From a virus, in IMG/VR virus record IMGVR_UViG_3300020470_000132, positions 1-30,710 of that record: 30,710 nucleotides of DNA, one strand, 5' to 3'. A program made the translations under genes and the position numbers. Under the pieces are notes generated by a model that was given only the letters and a program-made list of their open reading frames with translations, ran no database searches and had not been told where the DNA came from. Positions 14,465-28,451 of the stretch are shown piece by piece; position 1 is the stretch's first letter; every line of letters starts with the position of its first letter.

Positions 14465-14633
14465 CGATGAAGAGTTTGAGTATCTTGTTACTCAATTATG
14501 GAAGTGTCGTGGTAGTGAACCAAAGTGTAAGGATCTTTATGAGAAGATGAAACTTGTTAAGGAAGTTAGGGATGAAAATCCTGGCGGACCTTATCTTAAG
14601 ATCCTAAGAGAAAAATACAACATGGTAGCCTAA
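14448..14633 (+). CDS. Tiny 61-aa protein
   Basis: The ATG at 14448 begins MELPINDEEFEYLVTQLW. A longer in-frame extension to 14319 exists but would lie wholly inside the previous gene and looks non-biological. It has two helices and two cysteines (WKCRGSEPKC, a CX7C pair) and ends with KILREKYNMVA. The stop overlaps the nucleotidyltransferase start (TAATG). Family not recognised. Confidence 0.55.
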   Translation: MELPINDEEFEYLVTQLWKCRGSEPKCKDLYEKMKLVKEVRDENPGGPYLKILREKYNMVA

Positions 14634-15091
14634 TGTTTTTTAAGTCAGTTAGTCTTGTTACTGGAGGATATGATCCACTTCATAGTGGTCACATATCTAA
14701 CTTTAAGAGGGCGAAAGATCTCTCTAATTATCTTATCGTAGGAATCAACACTGAAGAATGGTTGACTCGTAAGAAGGGACAATACTTCCAATCTTGGAAG
14801 GAACGTGCTGAGATTATTCGACATTTAAATATGGTTGATGCTGTTATTTCTTGGGATGATTCTGATAATTCTGCATGTGGGGCTATTCAAAAGTGTTTAG
14901 AGATCTCCGAGAAGGTCATCTTCTGTAATGGGGGTGATAGAACCAGTAATGATATCCCTGAGATTTTGGGATTCGACGATGATCCTCGTGTAGAATTTAA
15001 GTTTGGTATCGGAGGTGATGATAAGATGAACAGTAGTTCTTGGATTCTTCATGGTTATTTCGAAAGGCAACGTAAATTATTAGGTATTTAA
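14633..15091 (+). CDS. Cytidylyltransferase-fold nucleotidyltransferase
   Basis: A 152-aa protein with the N-terminal signature TGGYDPLHSGHI (HxGH at His17-His20), typical of glycerol-3-phosphate cytidylyltransferase, RfaE/HldE C-terminal domains and related enzymes. RKKGQYFQSWKERAEII with the following VDAVISWDD matches the conserved second part of the RfaE-like subgroup. The final signature (ISTT/ISSS type) is represented by MNSSSWI. It would activate a small phosphate compound with CTP or ATP; the substrate is unknown. It lies between tiny genes and uvsX, on a TAATG overlap, and its stop abuts the uvsX start. Confidence 0.78.
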   Translation: MFFKSVSLVTGGYDPLHSGHISNFKRAKDLSNYLIVGINTEEWLTRKKGQYFQSWKERAEIIRHLNMVDAVISWDDSDNSACGAIQKCLEISEKVIFCNGGDRTSNDIPEILGFDDDPRVEFKFGIGGDDKMNSSSWILHGYFERQRKLLGI

Positions 15092-19096: not shown

Positions 19097-19258
19097 ATGT
19101 TCTGCAAGAATAAGATGAGTCGAGAAGACCGTCAAAAGTGGAAACTAAAAATGTATAACTACTGGCAAGATACTCTTGAAGAAAGACTTGCTGGTGTTTC
19201 TGCAGCGAAGGAAAAGCTTGAAGAGCAAATGAAGAGAGACTCTGTAGATAATGGCTGA
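19097..19258 (+). CDS. Tiny 53-aa charged helical protein
   Basis: The ATG at 19097 starts a 53-aa peptide (MFCKNKMSREDRQKWKLKM...) with a long Lys/Glu helix, AAKEKLEEQMKRD. An alternative start is Met7 at 19115. The stop at 19256-19258 overlaps the next ATG (19251) by 8 nt. It is probably co-expressed with the 393-aa late protein. A coiled coil is likely. Function unknown. Confidence 0.5.
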   Translation: MFCKNKMSREDRQKWKLKMYNYWQDTLEERLAGVSAAKEKLEEQMKRDSVDNG

Positions 19259-20432
19259 ATTTAATAAAGGTGATCTGGCAGAGGTTATCCTCAGTGCAGC
19301 TGTTGCTGCGAGATTTAAAAGAAGGTTTAGGGATTTAACTAGACAACCTGGCGATGAGTTCCAGAGAGTTCAGTTGGGTGCTATGCCAGCTATATCTCGT
19401 GCTGATGTTACATCTGTACTGAATGATTTGATTAAGGGAGCCTCAGCAACGGGAGGATCTTCTTCTTATAATGTCCATGATTATGATAAGAAGTTAAAGA
19501 TCCTTAGTGATGTTACAGATAACATTCACATTGAAGTTGCTATTCCTCAAAAGTCTTGGGATTATATAAAGAGTCCAGCTAATTGGTCTAATATCAATAA
19601 TATTTTTACTTCTGCTATTTCAAAGGTTAATGGTGATGGTAATCTAAGAGCTCGAGCAAGAGCGCTTAAGACTAATTTGAAGTATGATACTATTAATATA
19701 GCTGCACAAGGAACGAAGAATCAAAAGGGTACTAAGGTTGATATTAATATTAGTATTACCTCTACAGATCCAGATAAACAATCAACAAGAGCTTTAAAGG
19801 GTAAGAAAATATCCTTGAAGTATGATGCCCCACAGTTTGCACAATCAGTGGGACTTGCTTATGAGAATTTTGGAAAAATATTTGGTGACTTAGATTTACG
19901 GTGGGATGGTTTTCTTGATGCTTTTGAATCAGAAGTTAATCAAGTCTATCCAGATATTATAGGAAAGACATTTGCGAATAGAGATGCTATAAAAAATTCT
20001 AATGAGGTTAGGGCTCTTAAATCAGTTGCAAGAAAAGTATTTTTAAGTATTGATGATCAACTTGATGTTCTATTAACTACTAATAGTTTTAAAGAAAAAC
20101 TTGCAAGATATATTATTAACAGAGCCACTCTTAATGAGAGTGGAGTTGAACTAGTGAAGTTTGATATTAAGGGTGGATCTAAGACTCAGATGTTTGCAAA
20201 TAATGGCCAAGATTTTATTAACAATATAGTTGCTAATAATTGGGTAGCCACTATGGAAGATGATCAAGAAGATCCTAAGATAAAAATTCATCTTAAGGGT
20301 ACGAATTCATCATCCTCAAAAAATATGTTAATTCAGTTTAGATATAGAACTGATGCAAAGAAATCAGGCAACCAATATCAGATTTTGATGCGCTCTTATG
20401 TAGAGTCTGGTGGACAGTTGTATGAAAATTAA
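19251..20432 (+). CDS. Conserved cyanophage late protein, function unknown
   Basis: A 393-aa protein. The N terminus NKGDLAEVILSAAVAARF and the central GKKISLKYDAPQFAQSVG recall a family in cyanomyoviruses that I remember by the paired motifs KGD-x-AE and SLK-x(n)-QF-x-Q. The order Asp-Ile-x-Ile, then a Ser-Leu-Lys strand, is reminiscent of restriction-endonuclease-like folds, but I do not see a complete PD-(D/E)XK site, so nuclease activity is only a guess. It may equally be a virion protein. It is preceded by a late-like promoter and followed by an exact one, which supports late expression. Confidence 0.6.
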   Translation: MAEFNKGDLAEVILSAAVAARFKRRFRDLTRQPGDEFQRVQLGAMPAISRADVTSVLNDLIKGASATGGSSSYNVHDYDKKLKILSDVTDNIHIEVAIPQKSWDYIKSPANWSNINNIFTSAISKVNGDGNLRARARALKTNLKYDTINIAAQGTKNQKGTKVDINISITSTDPDKQSTRALKGKKISLKYDAPQFAQSVGLAYENFGKIFGDLDLRWDGFLDAFESEVNQVYPDIIGKTFANRDAIKNSNEVRALKSVARKVFLSIDDQLDVLLTTNSFKEKLARYIINRATLNESGVELVKFDIKGGSKTQMFANNGQDFINNIVANNWVATMEDDQEDPKIKIHLKGTNSSSSKNMLIQFRYRTDAKKSGNQYQILMRSYVESGGQLYEN

Positions 20433-20438
20433 TAAATA
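20431..20438 (+). promoter_or_regulatory. Late promoter (NATAAATA)
   Basis: AATAAATA at 20431-20438 matches the NATAAATA consensus exactly and overlaps the upstream TAA stop (20430-20432). It lies 25 nt before the ATG of the following gene, which has its own ribosome binding site AAAGGTG. It would drive the capsid-targeted nucleotidyltransferase and possibly genes beyond. Confidence 0.72.
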
Positions 20439-20462
20439 AGAAAGAAAGGTGACAATATTAGA

Positions 20463-21875
20463 ATGAAGAGTTTTAGTCAGTTTTTTAAAGAAGCTGTAGA
20501 GACTACTGCTTCCACTCAAGCTAAAAGACTTGGGTTGGTAGGAGATGGTCATGGTGGATGGTATGACCGTAAAGGTAAATTCACTGCTAAAACTGTAAGT
20601 GGTAAGTTGCATTTTACTGGTAGTGCAGGAGCTGGAGAAGATAAGACAGCTAAACAAGGTAAACCAACTGCTGCCGTAAGAACTACTAAAAGAACAAAAG
20701 GTCTAGCAGGTGCTGTTCCTACACCAAAAGGTACTGATAAGAAACTTGCTGATATTGATCGTCCTGTAGATGGTAAGGAAGATCCTAGGGATGCAGAAGC
20801 ACCAGAAGCAGGTGTTAATACAAATGGAGTTGTAGTTACTTTTGGTAGGTTTAATCCACCTACTATTGGACACGGAAAACTTTTAGATTTTGCTGGTAAA
20901 GAAGCAGAAAGAAGAGATTTTGATCTAAAGATATACCCTAGTAGGACTCAGGATAAGAAGAAGAATCCTATGGAGCCAGGGAAAAAGATTGAATTTATGA
21001 AGATGGCTTTTGATGATTATGCAGATAATATAATTGATGATCCAGAAGCTAAGACCATCTTTGATGTATTATTAGCTGCAAAGGAAAATGAATATAAAAA
21101 TTTAGTAATAGTTTGTGGTGGTGATAGGTTATCAGAATTCCAAAGTCTTGCTCACAAATATAATGGACCAGAGGAAGAAGGTGGTCTTTATCAATTTGGT
21201 ACTGATGGTCCAGAAGTTCTTTCTGCAGGTGATAGAGATCCTGATGCAGAAGGTGTTGAAGGTATGTCATCTTCTAAGATGAGAAAGTCTGCATCGGATG
21301 ATGACTTCCCATCTTTTGCAAAAGGTATTCCTGATGTTGGTAATGTAGAGAAGAAGAATTTATTCAATTCCATTCGTAAGTCTATGGGAATTGATAAGTC
21401 ATCTGTTAGGAGAGATAAGGCTCAAGGTAGTCATGCTAATGTTAAAGAATGTGCTGTTTGGGAGTATGCTCCTAAGTTAGATGTATCAGGACTAAGAGAA
21501 GCTTATAGACTTGGTAACATATATCCAGTAGGAGCTTTAGTAGAACATCTTAATACAGGTGAACTTGGAAGGATAACCCGTAGGGGAACCAATTATGTTA
21601 TTTGTATGACTGCAGAAGGTACTATGTTTAAGGCATGGTTGACAGATCTATCTGAGGCATATGAAGTAGGAACTGATGCATATAGAGAATATGTTCAGTC
21701 ATGCACTCCAGGCCAGGGTGTAGTAAAATTTGGAGAACCTAAGACAAGAATTAAAACAACAACGCCTGGATCATATTGGGATGGTAAACCTAAATCACCA
21801 GCAGAAGATCCTGCTAGTGGGCCAGGAACGAAGTATAACGATAAAAAGATACCTTACAAAGTCGGAGAGCGATAA
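20463..21875 (+). CDS. Nucleotidyltransferase with capsid-targeting N terminus
   Basis: A 470-aa protein in four visible parts. (1) Residues 1-11, MKSFSQFFKEA, match the T4 capsid targeting sequence MKTYQEFIAEA that directs internal proteins into the prohead and is cut after Glu by the prohead protease. (2) GDGHGGWYDRKGKF...GKLHF (27-52) is a short Gly-rich module frequent in cyanophage proteins. (3) A nucleotidyltransferase domain has GRFNPPTIGHGKLL at 128-141 (TxGH variant of HxGH) and SSSKMRKS at 269-276, similar to NMN adenylyltransferase-type enzymes. (4) An SH3/KOW-like stretch lies at 350-399 (GELGRITRRGTNYVI). I infer an enzyme packaged in the head. Exact substrate unknown. Confidence 0.75.
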   Translation: MKSFSQFFKEAVETTASTQAKRLGLVGDGHGGWYDRKGKFTAKTVSGKLHFTGSAGAGEDKTAKQGKPTAAVRTTKRTKGLAGAVPTPKGTDKKLADIDRPVDGKEDPRDAEAPEAGVNTNGVVVTFGRFNPPTIGHGKLLDFAGKEAERRDFDLKIYPSRTQDKKKNPMEPGKKIEFMKMAFDDYADNIIDDPEAKTIFDVLLAAKENEYKNLVIVCGGDRLSEFQSLAHKYNGPEEEGGLYQFGTDGPEVLSAGDRDPDAEGVEGMSSSKMRKSASDDDFPSFAKGIPDVGNVEKKNLFNSIRKSMGIDKSSVRRDKAQGSHANVKECAVWEYAPKLDVSGLREAYRLGNIYPVGALVEHLNTGELGRITRRGTNYVICMTAEGTMFKAWLTDLSEAYEVGTDAYREYVQSCTPGQGVVKFGEPKTRIKTTTPGSYWDGKPKSPAEDPASGPGTKYNDKKIPYKVGER

Positions 21876-21878
21876 ATA
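21871..21878 (+). promoter_or_regulatory. Late promoter (NATAAATA) overlapping a stop codon
   Basis: GATAAATA at 21871-21878 matches NATAAATA exactly. The TAA stop of the upstream gene (21873-21875) lies inside it. The next gene starts at 21908 with AGGA 7 nt before the ATG. Between them is a weak stem, TAGGA/TCCTA (21877-21881/21890-21894). Confidence 0.72.
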
Positions 21879-21907
21879 GGATTGAATATTCCTATTAGGA
21901 TGCTATT

Positions 21908-23506
21908 ATGACTAGTCCTCAAGACAAATTGACGGACGCTTATTCAGCGATCTATGAAAAGAAGCATATTATAGGCCTGGGTAAGGGCTCTCGAAAGCGT
22001 TGGCAGGACAACGATGGTGATGGAAAGTGGTATGAGCCTGGCGTAGACGTAAAGAAAGTTAAAGAAGAACTAGAGAAAACTGGTTTGTTTAATGAAGCTG
22101 AGATTGCAGCTATCATTAGTGAATCAGAGTGTGGATGTAATCAAGATCCATGCGTCTGTGATAAAGAACAGATTGATGAACTTAAGGCTAAGACCCTTGG
22201 TTCTTACATAGCGAAGGGATCAAAAGATCTTGCAGATAGGAGATTCGATCAGGGTGATAGTGAAAAGCGTAGGTGGGAACCTGATGAAGAGGATGATAAA
22301 GAGGACGCTAAATTAGACAAACGTGAAGAAGGAATTGCTCGTGCTTCTAAGAAGTTAGTAAAGAAAGTAAGGAAAGAAGAGCATGAGATAGTTGAGGACA
22401 TTGCTGACATTCTTGCACAGTTAGAGAGGAAGAGGATTAGACAGGGTGGAGATCCTGATGAGTCACCTTTAGGTAAGAAGACTGGTCGGGCAATGAAAGA
22501 TCAACAGGATAAGCAAAGAGATAAGGCTGGATTAAATCCTGATGGATCAAAGAAGAAGAAAAAAACAAATGAAGAAATAGAAGTTGTTGCGGAGAAGAAG
22601 AACTCTAAGAGGGTATCTCAGCATCCATACGGAAACAATGCGGAAACAAAGGCCGCAAAGAAAGAAGATGATGTAATCCGTAAAAAGTTAGGTCTACCAA
22701 AAAGGATGAAACCTACAAAGGATTATCCTTGGGATGATAGACATGAAGCAATGGACCAACTTTGGGATAAGGTTGCTTCACATTTAACTGAAATTCATGA
22801 ACTCGGAGGGGTTAAGTTTAAAGTAGTCCCTTTTGATGAGAGCGAGGTTGAGGAAGCCTTGAACCCCAAACTCGCTGCTATCGATGCTAAGAACAAGGAA
22901 AATGTTGCAAAACAGGCAGCTGCAGCCAAATCTGCAAGAGATAGGAAGGCTGCTGATGCTGCAAAGTTTCAAGCACATAAAAGAGATGTACTCGCCAAGG
23001 GTGGTCGTCCAGTAGACGCATTAGATTCTTGGCAGAAACAGAAATTACAGAATGGATATGAAGCAAAGTCCGAACAGGATGTGATACGTGAAGTATGTGG
23101 TACAGGTATTTGCATAGGTGCTGCTCTTGCTGCGGGTGGTACTAAGGCTGCCGCAGGTGGTGCTGTTGCCGCAAAGGCTGCAGGTGGTGCGGCTGCTGCA
23201 AAGACAGCTGCTGCCGCAAAGGGTGCAAGTGCCGCCGCAGGTGCATCTAAAACTGCTGCTGCAGCGAAGACTGCAACTACTGCTGGATCCACTGGTGCAA
23301 CAGCATCTAAAGGATCATCCGTTATGAAGGATCTTGGTAATTTTGCTAAGGATCAAGCTGCTCAAAGGGCTGCTGAACTTCCTGGCGAAATTGGTCAGAG
23401 TATCGCAGATAAAGTTTCAAGTTCTTCCGATAATAAAGGAAAGAAACGTGAGACTGGTCCTCTAGGTATGTCATTACCTGGCTCTACTCATGAGAAGGGG
23501 GACTAA
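21908..23506 (+). CDS. Probable virion/head-associated protein, Lys- and Ala-rich
   Basis: A 532-aa protein. N-terminal LTDAYSAIYEKK and GKGSRKRWQDNDGDGKWYEP include DNDGDG (34-39), a Ca-binding-like DxDxDG loop seen in many cyanophage proteins but lacking a clear EF-hand Glu12. The middle is highly charged (Lys/Glu/Asp). Residues 398-468 are mostly Ala with Gly, Lys, Thr and Ser. The C terminus ends GSTHEKGD. No catalytic domain. By composition, late promoter and neighbours I infer a structural or internal head protein. It has a good ribosome binding site and its own exact late promoter. Confidence 0.65.
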   Translation: MTSPQDKLTDAYSAIYEKKHIIGLGKGSRKRWQDNDGDGKWYEPGVDVKKVKEELEKTGLFNEAEIAAIISESECGCNQDPCVCDKEQIDELKAKTLGSYIAKGSKDLADRRFDQGDSEKRRWEPDEEDDKEDAKLDKREEGIARASKKLVKKVRKEEHEIVEDIADILAQLERKRIRQGGDPDESPLGKKTGRAMKDQQDKQRDKAGLNPDGSKKKKKTNEEIEVVAEKKNSKRVSQHPYGNNAETKAAKKEDDVIRKKLGLPKRMKPTKDYPWDDRHEAMDQLWDKVASHLTEIHELGGVKFKVVPFDESEVEEALNPKLAAIDAKNKENVAKQAAAAKSARDRKAADAAKFQAHKRDVLAKGGRPVDALDSWQKQKLQNGYEAKSEQDVIREVCGTGICIGAALAAGGTKAAAGGAVAAKAAGGAAAAKTAAAAKGASAAAGASKTAAAAKTATTAGSTGATASKGSSVMKDLGNFAKDQAAQRAAELPGEIGQSIADKVSSSSDNKGKKRETGPLGMSLPGSTHEKGD

Positions 23507-23509
23507 TAA

Positions 23510-25849
23510 ATGCCTGCGATTGATCCTGATGATATTACTTCTATCTTGAAAGCTCGTGATGCTTCTATAGAAAACGATGCCAAACAGGCAAAGAATAATT
23601 CTAAGAAGCCTACTACATTAGCAGATAGAGCCGATGCAAAAACTAGAAGTACACAAATTCTTAAAGCTGCTAGGAAGAAGAGACAAGATCGTTTAGCTGC
23701 ACTTAAAAAGCAGCGTGACGATGCAATGAAGTCTCAATCATCTCCTAATGTTTCATCACAAGATGGTGATGGTACAGCAATGGCCAAACTACAAAAGCAG
23801 GCTATTGGACAGACTAAGGATGTTGCACATGGATTAGTAAAGGCAAAGGAAGTAGGCGCTAACATTAAAGATAACCTAAAGGCTACTATAGGTCCTCGAA
23901 ATGTTCGTTCTGCTGAGAAGAGAATCAGCAAGATGGCTGATAATATGGCAAACATAAAGAAAACTGCCAAGGCAAAGGTTGATAGAGTAGTTGATAGTAA
24001 GAAAACTCAGATATCAAATCAGATAGATAAGTTGAAGAAGAAAAGAGAAGACAGAAGAAAGATTGCATCACAAACGTTGGCTAGAGACGTTACTCCTGCT
24101 GCTGATAAAGCAAAGAAAGCAGGAAGGGCATTTCCAAATATTGCCGCATCATACATCCCCACAGGAGCAGAGGTCATGACTGAAAAACTTTCCAACTGGA
24201 GAGAAGGGTTTATCTTTGAAGTTGATGATAAAAAAGAAACTAAAGAGAAACTCATCCAACCACTCAAAGGTACTAATACTATTACCATCAATCCTGATGA
24301 GAAAAAGATAGGTGAGAGTGTAGAATTAACTGAATCATTTATTAATTCCAAGATAGAAGATGCTACAGAGTTCTTCTTAGAGTCTGGACTTAATGAAGAT
24401 GGTTTAGATATTCTTGTGGATCTAGTTGGTGTTGATACATTTACAGATTTTGTTCTTGAAGATTCTTCAGAAGAATTGAATGAGGCAAGACGTGGTGGTG
24501 TAAGAATTGAACCAGTATCTAAGACTGGAAAGAAGATTGCTGGTATGAAGAAAGGTGGTGGAAGAACTACTGCACTTAAGTATCCAAAATCACAGAAGGC
24601 AGAGAGGAAGGCAGCAGAGAAAGCTGCATCAGAAGCAAAACCATCTGGATTAAAGGATTATCTTAAGAGTCAAGAGACTAAGAAGACAGTACAACCTGAA
24701 TCTGATAAGAAACCTGCTAAGGTTAAAGTAACTAAGGTTAAGAAAGTTAAGAAGTCAACTAAAGTTGCAAAGCAAATCCAACCTCCTAAGAAAGCTTCTA
24801 AGGAAACTATGCGTTCTAGGGTTACAGATTGGGTTAAGAAGGGTGTTAAAAGACATCAGGATGCAACAGCAAAAGCTAAGTCAGAAGTTAAGAAGATTGC
24901 TAAGACTGCATCAGATACAGCAAAGCAACATTCTCAACATCGTAAGGATCTTGTAAGTGGTCTTAAAGCTACTAAAAAAGAAAAGAAAATTGCTGGTGGT
25001 ATTGCAAAGGGTGTTAAGAAAGCATTGACTGGTGAAGAAGTAGAAATTGGTCAAGAATTAAAGTCTCTTATTGAAAGACCTTTATCCTCAACTGAAGAGG
25101 ATAAGAAGGAAGATATTGTTAAGGGAATGAAGAAGAATTACAGTGGCTTCAGAGAGAGATATGGTTCTGATGCTAAGAGTGTAATGTATGCTACTGCTAC
25201 TAAATTAGCTAAAGAAGAAGTAGGTATCTCATCTGCTGCTGCCATAGAAAAGGCTAAGAAAGAGAATGAACTTAGAAAGAAGGAACAGGAGGCAGTAGAA
25301 AAGGCAAAAAAGTCTTTAAAGAAAGAGGAAGTTCAACTTGAAGCAAAGGTTGATGCTGGAAAAGATGATGAAGCTAAAGAAGATGCAAGGAATACACGTA
25401 AGTTTGGACATGTTCCTTATAACAAGCATGGACATTCTGTTCTAAGAAGATCATTGCATCGTATGAGACGTGGTGACAAGAAGATAAAAGGAAACAAGGA
25501 AGTCAATGTTGAGACTGGTAAAGTAGGCAAGGAGATTGGTGAAGAAGTAGTCACTGAAAGACTAGGTGGTAAAGGATACTCTAGGAAAGCAGGAGCATCA
25601 GGAATTCATAAGACTTCTGGTGACTGGCCTGATTCTGATAGAGGTGCTGGTAACAAGGCAAAGAGAAGAGCAGGTGGTACGGTAGAGAAAAAATCTCCTA
25701 CTTATTTGGCACATGTTCATAACAAAGAGGAAGTAGAAATTCAAGATGCTCAAGGTCAAACTTTTTTAAAAGTGATTGATATTATAAGGGCTGAGAAGTT
25801 GAAACCCACTCCGTCAGTTATAAATAATCCAGAATCATTGATGCAATAG
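23510..25849 (+). CDS. Large Lys-rich probable virion protein
   Basis: A 779-aa protein, strongly basic with long Lys/Ala/Glu helical runs (for example TKVKKVKKSTKVAKQIQPPKK), like a DNA-binding or scaffold-type head protein. Short motifs shared among cyanophage virion proteins include EKLSNWREGFIFE (about 225-237) and YGSDAKSVMYATATKLAKEE (about 549-568). It is preceded by AAGGGG 9 nt before the ATG, 3 nt after the previous stop, so it is in one operon with the 532-aa protein. Hydrophobic-x-Glu sites occur and could be prohead-protease cuts, but I cannot demonstrate this. No enzyme domain seen. Confidence 0.65.
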   Translation: MPAIDPDDITSILKARDASIENDAKQAKNNSKKPTTLADRADAKTRSTQILKAARKKRQDRLAALKKQRDDAMKSQSSPNVSSQDGDGTAMAKLQKQAIGQTKDVAHGLVKAKEVGANIKDNLKATIGPRNVRSAEKRISKMADNMANIKKTAKAKVDRVVDSKKTQISNQIDKLKKKREDRRKIASQTLARDVTPAADKAKKAGRAFPNIAASYIPTGAEVMTEKLSNWREGFIFEVDDKKETKEKLIQPLKGTNTITINPDEKKIGESVELTESFINSKIEDATEFFLESGLNEDGLDILVDLVGVDTFTDFVLEDSSEELNEARRGGVRIEPVSKTGKKIAGMKKGGGRTTALKYPKSQKAERKAAEKAASEAKPSGLKDYLKSQETKKTVQPESDKKPAKVKVTKVKKVKKSTKVAKQIQPPKKASKETMRSRVTDWVKKGVKRHQDATAKAKSEVKKIAKTASDTAKQHSQHRKDLVSGLKATKKEKKIAGGIAKGVKKALTGEEVEIGQELKSLIERPLSSTEEDKKEDIVKGMKKNYSGFRERYGSDAKSVMYATATKLAKEEVGISSAAAIEKAKKENELRKKEQEAVEKAKKSLKKEEVQLEAKVDAGKDDEAKEDARNTRKFGHVPYNKHGHSVLRRSLHRMRRGDKKIKGNKEVNVETGKVGKEIGEEVVTERLGGKGYSRKAGASGIHKTSGDWPDSDRGAGNKAKRRAGGTVEKKSPTYLAHVHNKEEVEIQDAQGQTFLKVIDIIRAEKLKPTPSVINNPESLMQ

Positions 25850-25859
25850 GAACACAGGA

Positions 25860-26129
25860 ATGAACACATTAATTAAAGGAGCTCAAGCTGCATGTGGTAC
25901 TAATGCTGCAGGCGCATCTACATTCGGAAGCGCAACCGTAGTTCGTCTTTATAATAGTACTTCTACTGCAAGATTAGTATCTGTTATTGATGAAGTAAAT
26001 GGATCCACAACAATTGGAACCTTTACAATTCTAGGTAATAGTGTTGAGTTTGTAGAGAAGAAATCAACAGAAGCAATTTTTGCGGCAGATGCTACTGTCT
26101 TTGGTTCAAAGGTAGGATACACAAATTAA
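25860..26129 (+). CDS. Small beta-rich probable structural protein
   Basis: An 89-aa protein rich in Ser, Thr, Ala and Val (STFGSATVVRLYNSTSTARL, then TIGTFTILGNSVEF), with predicted beta strands and no charge clusters. It would suit a virion decoration or tail component. It starts 10 nt after the preceding stop with AGGAAC/AGGA nearby. I recall similar short proteins in cyanomyoviruses but cannot name a function. Confidence 0.6.
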   Translation: MNTLIKGAQAACGTNAAGASTFGSATVVRLYNSTSTARLVSVIDEVNGSTTIGTFTILGNSVEFVEKKSTEAIFAADATVFGSKVGYTN

Positions 26130-26162
26130 ACCTGATATATAATACAGTTGCAATAATTTTAT

Positions 26163-26756
26163 ATGACGCTGCCTAAGGAAGTAGTATTAGAGGCACTTAG
26201 GTGCTGTCGTGATGTGTACCCACATTCACAGGATTTTTTAGTAAGTAGAAAGTGTGAAGGACACACTATACTTGCGGTAGAGGGAACAAATGAGACTACA
26301 GATTGGGTGACAAATCTGAAGTTTTTGATTAAGAGAGATGATTGTCACAGAGGTTTTAGAAATAATGCTAATAGGACACTAGCTTCACTAGTGATCGGTT
26401 ACGAAGCATTGGATCCTAAGAGGAAACTAGTAATTGCAGGACACTCTTTAGGTGGTGCTACTGCAACACTTATTGCCGAAGCTCTTTGGGATTCAGGTAA
26501 TAAAAATATTGGGTTAGTTACTGCAGGGTCACCAAGGCCAGGTGGACGTAGGTTAAGAAGGAGAATTAAAGACCTTGAACATCTTCGGTTTGTGCATGGT
26601 AATGACATTGTGCCAGGGACTCCTCCTTGGTTGGCTGGCTATGTACATACTCACCCACGCATCTACCTACCTGATGAGGTAGAGACTAGATTTGATGGTG
26701 TCGCTGATCACAATATAGGTGATTACTACGATGCCGCAGTAAAGTATTATTCTTGA
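26163..26756 (+). CDS. Class 3 lipase-like alpha/beta hydrolase
   Basis: A 197-aa protein. The nucleophile elbow GHSLGGA (93-99, Ser95) follows strand KLVIAG. Asp148 lies in VHGNDIVPGTPP, and His183 in ADHNIGDYYDA completes a plausible triad in the usual lipase_3 order. The upstream AVEGTNETTDWVTNL and CHRGF match the family's substrate-loop region. Such enzymes hydrolyse acylglycerols or phospholipids. There is no signal peptide or membrane segment. A TATAAT-like element lies at 26138-26143 without a -35 box. It lies between virion genes and small membrane proteins, so it might act on host membranes during lysis or be part of the virion; this is inference. Confidence 0.8.
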   Translation: MTLPKEVVLEALRCCRDVYPHSQDFLVSRKCEGHTILAVEGTNETTDWVTNLKFLIKRDDCHRGFRNNANRTLASLVIGYEALDPKRKLVIAGHSLGGATATLIAEALWDSGNKNIGLVTAGSPRPGGRRLRRRIKDLEHLRFVHGNDIVPGTPPWLAGYVHTHPRIYLPDEVETRFDGVADHNIGDYYDAAVKYYS

Positions 26757-26763
26757 GGTAATT

Positions 26764-27039
26764 ATGAAAAAGTATTTAAATCAAACAACAGTTAATGTTA
26801 TTGCTATCGCAGGTGCTGCCGCATGGGGACTCTGTTTATTGGGTAGTGTTACTAAAGTAGTCCAGAGAGGTGGTTCTAATTCTGCATATAAATCACAGAC
26901 AGTTGAGAATCTGAAATTAGATCATGATATTGCTAGAGTAAAGCATTGTGGCCAGATTATAAAGTCTGGAATTAGGATTGATGATAAGTCACCAACATCA
27001 TCATTGTGTTCAGATATTATAGTAGTTGAGAAAGAATGA
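26764..27039 (+). CDS. Small single-pass membrane protein
   Basis: A 91-aa protein. Residues about 9-31 (VNVIAIAGAAAWGLCLLGSV) form one hydrophobic helix after a short basic start, then a polar C-terminal domain with Cys57 (KHCGQI) and Cys82 (SSLCSD). It could be an uncleaved membrane anchor or signal-type sequence. The last 4 nt overlap the next gene. Spanin or holin-like roles are possible but unsupported. It follows the lipase by 7 nt, suggesting co-expression. Confidence 0.65.
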   Translation: MKKYLNQTTVNVIAIAGAAAWGLCLLGSVTKVVQRGGSNSAYKSQTVENLKLDHDIARVKHCGQIIKSGIRIDDKSPTSSLCSDIIVVEKE

Positions 27040-27218
27040 CATTCTTATTCTTATTAGTGAAACCCTTGCTGCTACTTGCAGTAAGGAAGGTGTTTAAGAA
27101 ACAAATGAAAGTCTTTGCTATCGAGATGCTTGAAAACTATGCTCAGACTACGGACAATGACGTAGATGATCAGTTGGTTGCAAGGGTTAAGAAGGCTATG
27201 AGACTTGGTGCAGTATAA
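27036..27218 (+). CDS. Small protein with N-terminal hydrophobic helix
   Basis: A 60-aa protein that starts on an ATGA overlap. MTFLFLLVKPLLLLAVRK is one hydrophobic helix broken by Lys-Pro, followed by a basic stretch and an acidic helix (YAQTTDNDVDDQLVARVKK). It ends inside an exact late promoter. The topology suggests membrane association. With the preceding gene it forms a pair of small membrane proteins directly after the lipase. Function unknown. Confidence 0.6.
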   Translation: MTFLFLLVKPLLLLAVRKVFKKQMKVFAIEMLENYAQTTDNDVDDQLVARVKKAMRLGAV

Positions 27219-27221
27219 ATA
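27214..27221 (+). promoter_or_regulatory. Exact T4-type late promoter
   Basis: TATAAATA at 27214-27221 is the full T4 late consensus. The TAA stop of the upstream gene (27216-27218) is inside it. The next gene starts at 27256 with GGAG at 27243-27246, so the leader is about 30 nt long. Confidence 0.85.
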
Positions 27222-27255
27222 AACTTAGATCGTAGTCTATTTGGAGATAAAGCCC

Positions 27256-27846
27256 ATGCCTCTTTGGGGAAAAACTGACGCTGATGAGTCCAAGCCAAAG
27301 TGGCTCACAGACGAACAAAAGAAAGAAGTCTATGCCAACGCAAGTGGTTGGGTAGTCGAAGCTGGTTCAGCAATGACTGGTAACGACAACGCTAATGCAG
27401 CACCAGAGATATTGGTTGCCATTGGTGGATTATCTACAGGTATTGGCGCTGCTGACATTACAGAAGTTGAATGGATCACCACAACTGCTGACAAGTCCGC
27501 TGGATTTACTCTATCTGTTAGAGTTAGATACAACGAAGCTGTCACCGTTACTGGATCACCAACACTTGCAGTTACTAATGGTAACCAAGGTTCTGGATCA
27601 GGTCGTGGACCACATACTCTAGTATATGCCAGTGGATCAGGTTCTAACGAACTAGTATTCTCACTCGCAATCGCTGCTGCTAACGCTGCAACAAATGAAG
27701 ATGACGTACTAACCATTGGTGCTCAGAGCATTGCTAAGCCAGGTGGTGCTACTATTAAGGATACAACTGGAACTGCTTCCGATTCTTCTGTTGCAATCTC
27801 TGCTGGACAGGGAACCGCTGCAGGTTCAATCACTGTGGTTGCATAA
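27256..27846 (+). CDS. Ig-like virion structural protein
   Basis: A 196-aa protein. The first 60 residues (from MPLWGKTDADESKPKWLT) resemble the head of an abundant cyanophage structural protein. The rest is a beta sandwich with VRVRYNEAVTVTGSPTLAV, TLVYASGSGSNELVFSLAI and GATIKDTTGT, the style of Ig-like/SwmB-type repeats. The start at ATG 27256 is fixed by GGAG 9 nt upstream; a TTG at 27241 is less likely. It sits behind an exact late promoter, so strong late expression is expected. Confidence 0.7.
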   Translation: MPLWGKTDADESKPKWLTDEQKKEVYANASGWVVEAGSAMTGNDNANAAPEILVAIGGLSTGIGAADITEVEWITTTADKSAGFTLSVRVRYNEAVTVTGSPTLAVTNGNQGSGSGRGPHTLVYASGSGSNELVFSLAIAAANAATNEDDVLTIGAQSIAKPGGATIKDTTGTASDSSVAISAGQGTAAGSITVVA

Positions 27847-27853
27847 CTAAATA
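27846..27853 (+). promoter_or_regulatory. Late-promoter-like element
   Basis: ACTAAATA (27846-27853) has one mismatch to NATAAATA and begins at the last base of the upstream stop. It lies 23 nt before the next ATG (27877). The same one-mismatch CTAAATA form occurs after mazG. Confidence 0.45.
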
Positions 27854-27876
27854 GTCAAAATTGAATATTATAGAGT

Positions 27877-28248
27877 ATGAGATTTGATGAACTGAATGAG
27901 AATAACTATGTAATTTTTGCAATTAAGAATTACGAGAATCCTCATGCGGTAACGCAAGAAGATTTTGAAGAAGACCTTAAAAGGTTTAAATGGGTAAAGA
28001 GGCTTTTGAAACGCTACAAGACTACTGGCGTTTTGAAAGCTCATTTATTGATTAATCATTTTATAATATTGTATAATGTTTTTGGTGAGGCTGCTACTCC
28101 CTTACTGTTTTACAAAATAGATAAGGACTTGTGGCCTGTTGTTAAGACTTTTGTAGTTTATCTTGGTAGACTGCCAGAGTTTCCTAGGTCTGAACTACAT
28201 GATGTACCAACTGATCCCGTTTGTCTAGAAACGTTAAACACCCTATGA
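27877..28248 (+). CDS. Conserved cyanophage protein, function unknown
   Basis: A 123-aa mainly helical protein: MRFDELNENNYVIFAIKNYENP, DLKRFKWVKRLLKRYK, LLINHFIILYNVFGEAATPLLFYKI, then DKDLWPVVKTFVVYL. I recall this pattern as a widely conserved, unnamed family in cyanomyoviruses. The hydrophobic middle is more like a buried helix bundle than a membrane span. A late-like promoter precedes it, and it overlaps the next gene by ATGA. Confidence 0.7.
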   Translation: MRFDELNENNYVIFAIKNYENPHAVTQEDFEEDLKRFKWVKRLLKRYKTTGVLKAHLLINHFIILYNVFGEAATPLLFYKIDKDLWPVVKTFVVYLGRLPEFPRSELHDVPTDPVCLETLNTL

Positions 28249-28451
28249 GCGATCATATTTTAGACAATATAAGAAAGGTAGTTAAAGGTGGTTCTCTTAA
28301 TGAGGATGCTCCTACTATGTCTGCGGGTACGGGTGGGTTTAGTTCTGCTGCGGCAGCTGAAGGACCAGTTGCAGGATTTGATCCAGCCATGGGCAAACCT
28401 CTGAAAAGAAAGAAATTGAAGAAGGTTTCCCAACTCAAGAAAAATGGCTGA
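28245..28451 (+). CDS. Small basic-tailed protein
   Basis: A 68-aa protein. The ATG at 28245 overlaps the upstream stop (ATGA); a longer frame from 28221 would lie inside the previous gene. It has an N-terminal helix (SDHILDNIRKVVKGG), an Ala/Gly/Ser-rich middle, and a basic tail, GKPLKRKKLKKVSQLKKNG. It is probably disordered and able to bind nucleic acid or act in the virion. The stop overlaps the next gene by 8 nt. Function unknown. Confidence 0.6.
   Translation: MSDHILDNIRKVVKGGSLNEDAPTMSAGTGGFSSAAAAEGPVAGFDPAMGKPLKRKKLKKVSQLKKNG

Follow-up and report, generated by a model that had tools for sequence, protein, structure and literature searches.

The internal proteins IPII and IPIII of phage T4 possess a capsid targeting sequence (CTS), reportedly described by Mullaney and Black in 1996. 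The genes ipII and ipIII both start with MKTYQEFIAEA, as read from the T4 genome. Within this peptide, targeting depends on residues 4 and 7, and cleavage on residues 8 and 10 (PMC9026906). The T4 internal proteins are restriction inhibitors (PMC12373910), and T-even phages are known to load cargo that bears a CTS (PMC3012670, PMC12373910).

For some of the commonest ocean viruses, very little is known about the proteins that enter the cell with the DNA. Published studies describe T4-GC190 as a cyanophage core gene (PMC3037559), and report the detection of its product (phrog_395) by mass spectrometry in the virions of phages S-SM1 (PMC3037559), S-SCSM1 and S-CBWM1 (PMC9602691), and S-CREM2 (PMC10665884). 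Relatives are annotated there as NMNAT, on similarity only (PMC9602691). The authors leave co-purification in CsCl as an open caveat (PMC10665884, PMC9602691), and the groups that found this enzyme in cyanophage virions could not separate cargo from contamination. The available text of the three proteome papers (PMC3037559, PMC9602691, PMC10665884) contains no mention of a targeting peptide, nor any report of peptide cleavage in the T4-GC190 orthologues. A packaging tag kept at its functional positions provides both a mechanism and a test for this question of cargo versus contamination.

The Locus and Its Late-Type Promoters

The window, i.e., the whole 30.7-kb stretch of DNA analysed, is a T4-like cyanophage fragment without head genes. 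Clamp loader, polymerase, uvsX, gp41-type helicase, mazG, and gp61-type primase follow each other in the cyanomyovirus gene order. Just upstream of uvsX, at 14633-15091, lies a second nucleotidyltransferase-like ORF, which is untagged (SLVTGGYDPLHSGHISNFKRA). The product of the ORF under study (ORF 20463, Table 1) displays 54% identity to S-SSM7_194 and 45% to S-SCSM1 ORF91. It matches the phrog_395 profile (E 3.5e-81) over residues 120-434, which comprise the enzyme domain and the downstream module, and its relatives are present in 528 phage records. In IMG/VR, a single-protein query returned only one relative, and an alignment query 80 loci.

In phage S-SCSM1, an island at the same mazG-primase position corresponds to 19251-28451 of the window, and its annotation lists seven ORFs as encoding virion proteins, NMNAT among them (ORFs 89-93, 95, and 97). 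The low-complexity ORF that follows the enzyme gene shows only a short similarity to S-SSM7_195. Together with relatives in the islands of several cyanophages, it exhibits another type of start (KLTDAYSAIYEKK, KLVDAYKSMYEHH, SLSEAYAAVYS), which may represent a further class of peptides for targeting to the head. The small basic ORF at the end of the island resembles the S-SCSM1 virion protein ORF97 over 25 residues. Its mimic of the gp23 arm, which may bind the capsid lattice, recurs in that protein, in the S-CREM2 virion protein gp160, and in S-SM1_197; the annotation of the last as "major head protein" probably stems from this mimic. The other ORFs of the window island were also considered as carriers of the CTS and rejected, ORF 20463 alone fitting the motif.

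The enzyme gene had been placed behind an exact late promoter in a preliminary description of this DNA. The octamer AATAAATA is indeed of the late type, but it agrees with the T4 consensus TATAAATA at seven of eight positions, being one base off. The heptamer ATAAATA occurs four times on the + strand of the window (20432, 21872, 25820, and 27215) and never on the - strand. Each copy is found 26-40 nt before an ORF (20463, 21908, 25860, and 27241), all within the virion-like island. It is also present at most 70 nt upstream in 37 of 79 homologues, versus 2.8% of random 70-mers. These signals in the DNA point to a probable late expression of ORF 20463.

Table 1. Features of the enzyme gene, of its island, and of tagged proteins elsewhere. 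Positions are those of the window, unless preceded by the handle of another locus (L).
Feature	Coordinates	Strand	Remarks
Upstream ORF, phrog_33928, function unknown	19251..20432	+	Opens the island between mazG and primase
Late-promoter-like octamer	20431..20438	+	Start codon about 31 nt further on
Virion-type adenylyltransferase ORF, 470 aa, starts MKSFSQFFKEA	20463..21875	+	T4-GC190 / phrog_395 "cytidylyltransferase"
Capsid targeting sequence MKSFSQFFKEA	20463..20495	+	Predicted prohead-protease cut after Glu10
DGHG module, residues 17-52	20511..20618	+	Basic (pI 10.3)
Linker, residues 53-119	20619..20819	+	Variable, basic, predicted disordered
HIGH-superfamily nucleotidylyltransferase domain, residues 120-311	20820..21395	+	
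FGRFNPPTIGH, TxGH nucleotide-binding motif	20841..20873	+	G128, R129, F130, N131, P132, P133, and H137 invariant (59 sequences)
MSSSKMR, counterpart of the ISxTxxR motif	21264..21284	+	R274 invariant (59 sequences)
C-terminal module, five-stranded, residues 357-400	21531..21662	+	Likeness to SH3 in secondary structure alone; encoded separately in P-HM2 and ACG-2014e
Low-complexity ORF with its own ATAAATA at 21872	21908..23506	+	Likely co-expressed late gene
Small basic ORF, mimic of the N-terminal arm of mature gp23 (NEDAPTMSAGTGGFSSAAAAEGPVAGFDPAM; near copy GGFSSAAAAEGPVAGFDPAM)	28221..28451	+	Resembles S-SCSM1 ORF97 over 25 residues
SAM lyases with capsid targeting peptide	L099:3837-5081 (S-CREM2 gp6), L089:10688-11164, L159:7160-7690		
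Short proteins starting MKTFQEFIAEA (one residue off the T4 peptide)	L153:962-1504, L035:18246-18707, L167:5389-5838		ADP-ribosyltransferase-type fold

The N-Terminal Peptide

Six identities with the T4 CTS had been claimed for the first 11 residues. Five of them hold (M1, K2, F7, E10, and A11), but the Gln is found at position 6 here and at position 5 in T4. The S/T3, F/Y4, and F/I8 replacements, also listed there, are conservative, and the likeness to the T4 CTS is itself real, the number of identities and the promoter (7/8) being the two corrections needed. A ranking by BLOSUM62 score against the T4 11-mer, without motif fitting, covered all start codons (11,318) in the window, S-SCSM1, S-CREM2, and part of S-SSM7. 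The window peptide comes third (z 5.3). Among the best five, S-SCSM1 ORF30 is first, and the T4-GC190 members of S-SSM7, the window, S-CREM2, and S-SCSM1 occupy places two to five. Chance is ruled out as the origin of this likeness.

At the positions of the T4 CTS that serve targeting, the window peptide possesses an aromatic residue (F4) and F7. The positions of the gp21 cleavage rule are occupied by a hydrophobic residue (F8), E10, and a small residue (A11). The T4 rule prefers Ile or Leu at residue 8; the Phe of the window peptide departs from T4’s Ile, and is found in 5 of 75 homologues. Residues 7-11 share their form with maturation-type sites of gp23, namely FLAE/AP in S-SCSM1, LLTE/AP in S-CREM2, FLYE/AP in other contigs, and FLTE/A in T4. 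A prohead protease of the gp21 type is annotated in S-SCSM1 and S-CREM2, the window being a fragment devoid of head genes.

M1, K2, F4, F7, E10, and A11 are invariant in seven sequences ranging from S-SSM7 to the freshwater phage S-CRM01, in which the 100-residue spacer is lacking and the enzyme domain follows immediately after the peptide. In phages with virion-detected members, the family starts with MKKFSAFLNEA (S-SM1), MKSFLQFLKEA (S-SCSM1), and MKNFSSFLTEA (S-CREM2). Among the metagenomic homologues, the start motif fits 75 of 79. In these 75, F7 and E10 are always present, K2 is found in 74, F4 in 72, and A11 in 61; residue 8 is Leu, Ile, Phe, or Val, and residues 5, 6, and 9 drift. The pattern used to pick the starts included residues 2, 4, and 7, and E10, which lies outside it, is therefore an independent test of conservation. 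The four non-fitting homologues are recognisable variants, three reading MNFVDFIKEA and one MMTKSLSQFLTEA. Each conserved site is encoded by a mixture of synonymous codons, so that it is the protein, and not the DNA, that is under selection. The entropy amounts to 0.95 over residues 1-11, versus 2.57 over the linker (53-122), the least conserved part. In phages P-HM2 and ACG-2014e, the catalytic domain forms a short untagged ORF, and the ORF after it encodes the C-terminal module; the catalytic ORF of Pseudomonas phage MIJ3 is also devoid of the tag. The tag thus marks most, not all, of the T4-GC190 / phrog_395 family.

The Enzyme Domain and Accessory Modules

The NMN-adenylyltransferase-like domain of the preliminary description is borne out by Pfam (CTP_transf_like, 27.4 bits versus a cut-off of 21) and by a HIGH-type fold. 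The AlphaFold2 model, built from 59 homologues, is confident over residues 120-311, with pLDDT values of 81-98 in ten-residue blocks as far as residue 310. Fold comparison, performed on these residues only, yields PPAT (Z 14.2, rmsd 2.9, 150 aligned), NadD (Z 13.6, rmsd 3.1, 160 aligned), and NadM (Z 13.4, rmsd 2.8, 153 aligned). These scores are tied, so the fold is not specific for NMN or NaMN; Foldseek ranks NadD first (E 7.8e-6). A search of PDB sequences reveals no confident relative. The FGRFNPPTxGH and S-S/A-S-x-x-R motifs, common to sister families, are near-invariant in 59 sequences, which makes it probable that the domain is active. The score against the NadD equivalog model TIGR00482 is 17.9 bits for a cut-off of 112.45, and Pfam detects neither the Nudix nor the kinase partner domain of NadM/NadR in the product. 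An action on NAD metabolism, as proposed earlier, is possible, the fold fitting NadD and NadM; PPAT fits equally well, and the score for the NadD equivalog is far below its cut-off.

What had been called a Gly-rich module is present, as a conserved DGHG module of pattern A..KxLGL..DGHG.W.D..G...AKT..GKL. It recurs in two virion proteins of S-CREM2, namely gp12 and, twice, gp14, and phrog_3561 possesses it N-terminally. Its absence from the S-CRM01 and S-CREM2 members indicates that the T4-GC190 family does not need it. The C-terminal module described as SH3-like does harbor five predicted strands (residues 359-398), a likeness to SH3 that is one of secondary structure only.

S-CREM2 gp12 (L099:7704-10313), annotated as CRISPR-associated Cas9 (Cas9/Csn1), was rejected as a tagged protein. 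Its RFASFMAEA segment lies 17 residues inside the annotated start and is not directly preceded by ATG, GTG, or TTG, hence its exclusion from the count. The Cas9 name looks wrong, given that this protein has no Pfam match, harbors the DGHG module, and aligns with phrog_3561.

The Tag on Other Proteins

A relaxed CTS motif was searched at the start codons of T4, S-CREM2, and S-SCSM1. In all of T4, it retrieves ipII, ipIII, and 61.1 only. T4 gene 61.1 (L103:18966-19130) encodes 54 residues starting with MKTFKEFIKED and adjoins T4 anti-toxin genes; its product is a possible extra internal protein. In the two cyanophages, it yields six tagged ORFs in S-CREM2 and two in S-SCSM1. Five of the six S-CREM2 ORFs belong to the published virion list (PMC10665884; hypergeometric p 0.003): the SAM lyase gp6 (MKDFDSFLEEF; Pfam S-AdoMet_lyase, E 2.3e-19), gp13, the kinase-like gp14 (MKRFDAFLTEE), gp136, and gp154. 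The tag and virion listing of gp6 suggest an anti-restriction activity delivered with the DNA. The two S-SCSM1 ORFs are ORF30, whose annotation bears no virion-protein mark, and ORF91. Over both phages, six of eight tagged ORFs encode virion proteins (p 0.0009), and motifs with permuted columns average 0.34 matches versus 8 for the true motif.

At the DNA level in IMG/VR, MKTFx[QE]FIxEA matches at least 120 stretches, and the same residues in scrambled order match none. Among the matches listed, tagged ORFs encode members of the T4-GC190 enzyme family, SAM lyases, GNAT acetyltransferases, and proteins with a lytic-transglycosylase-type or a glucosaminidase domain. The fold of a further tagged family is of the ADP-ribosyltransferase type (best Z 8.8, rmsd 4.0, 121 aligned, in a model of pLDDT 63), with a Foldseek E value of 2e-4 to PARP domains. 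These contigs are mostly fragments, and the packaging of the proteins they encode is therefore a prediction. Used as a test of T4-like origin, phrog_19 is found in 3 of 12 tagged records, a weak measure given the fragments and a profile that also matches bacterial genomes. The occurrence of the tag on enzymes as unrelated as a SAM lyase, a kinase, an ADP-ribosyltransferase-fold protein, and an acetyltransferase makes it probably a general cargo label.

Proposed Role and Alternatives

The capsid-targeting reading is strongly supported by the conservation of the positions functional in T4, the orthologues in four virions, the late promoters, and the tag on other virion enzymes. According to this reading, ORF 20463 would be transcribed late, from the promoter visible in the sequence, and its first 11 residues would act as a T4-type CTS, bringing the protein into the prohead core. 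That the tag works and that the product is packaged in the head is very probable. A gp21-type protease would then cut after Glu10 at maturation, a likely step that fits the gp23 maturation-type sites of relatives. The mature 50-kDa protein, made of the DGHG module, the basic linker, the adenylyltransferase domain, and the small β module, would stay in the head and, by analogy with T4, be ejected with the DNA, which is only slightly less likely than the cleavage. Its most likely reaction in the cell would be adenylyl transfer to a small phosphate. As this substrate, NMN or NaMN is the likeliest guess, with NAD then being restored as infection begins; this tentative assignment is rated somewhat below an even chance.

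The chances are even that the tag-packaged enzyme acts instead on another substrate, as a PPAT-like or other adenylyl- or cytidylyltransferase, e.g., in nucleotide signalling or cofactor control. Such a substrate would affect the last step only, not packaging. The level fold scores of PPAT, NadD, and NadM argue for it, as do the low NadD equivalog score and the lack of a Nudix or kinase partner domain by Pfam, whereas the first rank of NadD in Foldseek and the NMNAT annotation of relatives, given by similarity only (PMC9602691), favor NMN or NaMN. Several propeptide-bearing head proteins of T4 are assembly proteins (PMC9026906), and T4-GC190, a cyanophage core gene (PMC3037559), is unlike the fast-changing T4 internal proteins in this respect. 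The product might thus be a structural or assembly head factor, packaged yet not delivered to the cell, with a domain acting, if at all, in assembly; near-invariant catalytic residues and a tag shared by several unrelated enzymes, as expected of cargo, make this unlikely.

Most improbable of all is another role of the peptide, such as binding to the replisome or to a host partner, with virion detection reflecting an abundant co-purifying protein. ORF 20463 does sit among replication genes, and the proteome authors raise co-purification themselves (PMC10665884, PMC9602691), but the match to the T4 CTS at functional positions, the other tagged virion proteins, the four proteomes, and the late promoter all speak for capsid targeting.

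Beyond this locus, the CTS, followed in some proteins by the DGHG module, could be a general delivery label of T4-like cyanophages and their relatives, loading adenylyltransferases, SAM lyases, kinases, ADP-ribosyltransferase-fold proteins, and GNAT proteins into heads for injection as effectors of counter-defence or takeover, a proposal whose odds we judge evenly balanced. If it is true, injected proteins become predictable from their first 11 residues alone, and the tag provides a sequence rule for finding them in some of the commonest ocean viruses.

Comparison with Known Systems

In the literature searched, with subscription papers and preprints outside its scope, a cyanophage targeting sequence was looked for and a single review was retrieved, in which cyanophages occur in a reference title only. 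Within that literature, the virion location of T4-GC190 is known, and its link to the CTS and the spread of the tag to other enzymes appear to be new. The word cyanophage is absent from a survey of phage NAD salvage (PMC9503650), whose available part contains no proposal that NadM or NadR is packaged. With these phage enzymes, the product of ORF 20463 shares the HIGH-superfamily adenylyltransferase fold and motifs; unlike them, it possesses no Nudix or P-loop kinase domain according to Pfam. T4 Alt, an ADP-ribosyltransferase, travels inside the head and enters the cell upon infection, as proposed here, but it belongs to a different enzyme class and its start, MELITELFDED, is a different propeptide.

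The closest relatives are the orthologous T4-GC190 / phrog_395 proteins of S-SM1, S-SCSM1 ("NMNAT"), and S-CREM2 (gp154), which have been detected in virions. In S-SM1, S-SSM7, and S-SCSM1, the gene lies between gp41/mazG and gp61, as in the window. Like T4 IPII and IPIII, the T4-GC190 family combines a virion location with an N-terminal stretch of 10-11 residues, set at the start codon and comprising an aromatic residue 4, F7, a hydrophobic residue 8, E10, and A11. In a cursory comparison, the likeness was noticed in this tag alone. The T4 internal proteins are small (precursors of 100 and 193 residues), whereas the product of ORF 20463 is a 51-kDa protein harboring an enzyme domain and a DGHG module.
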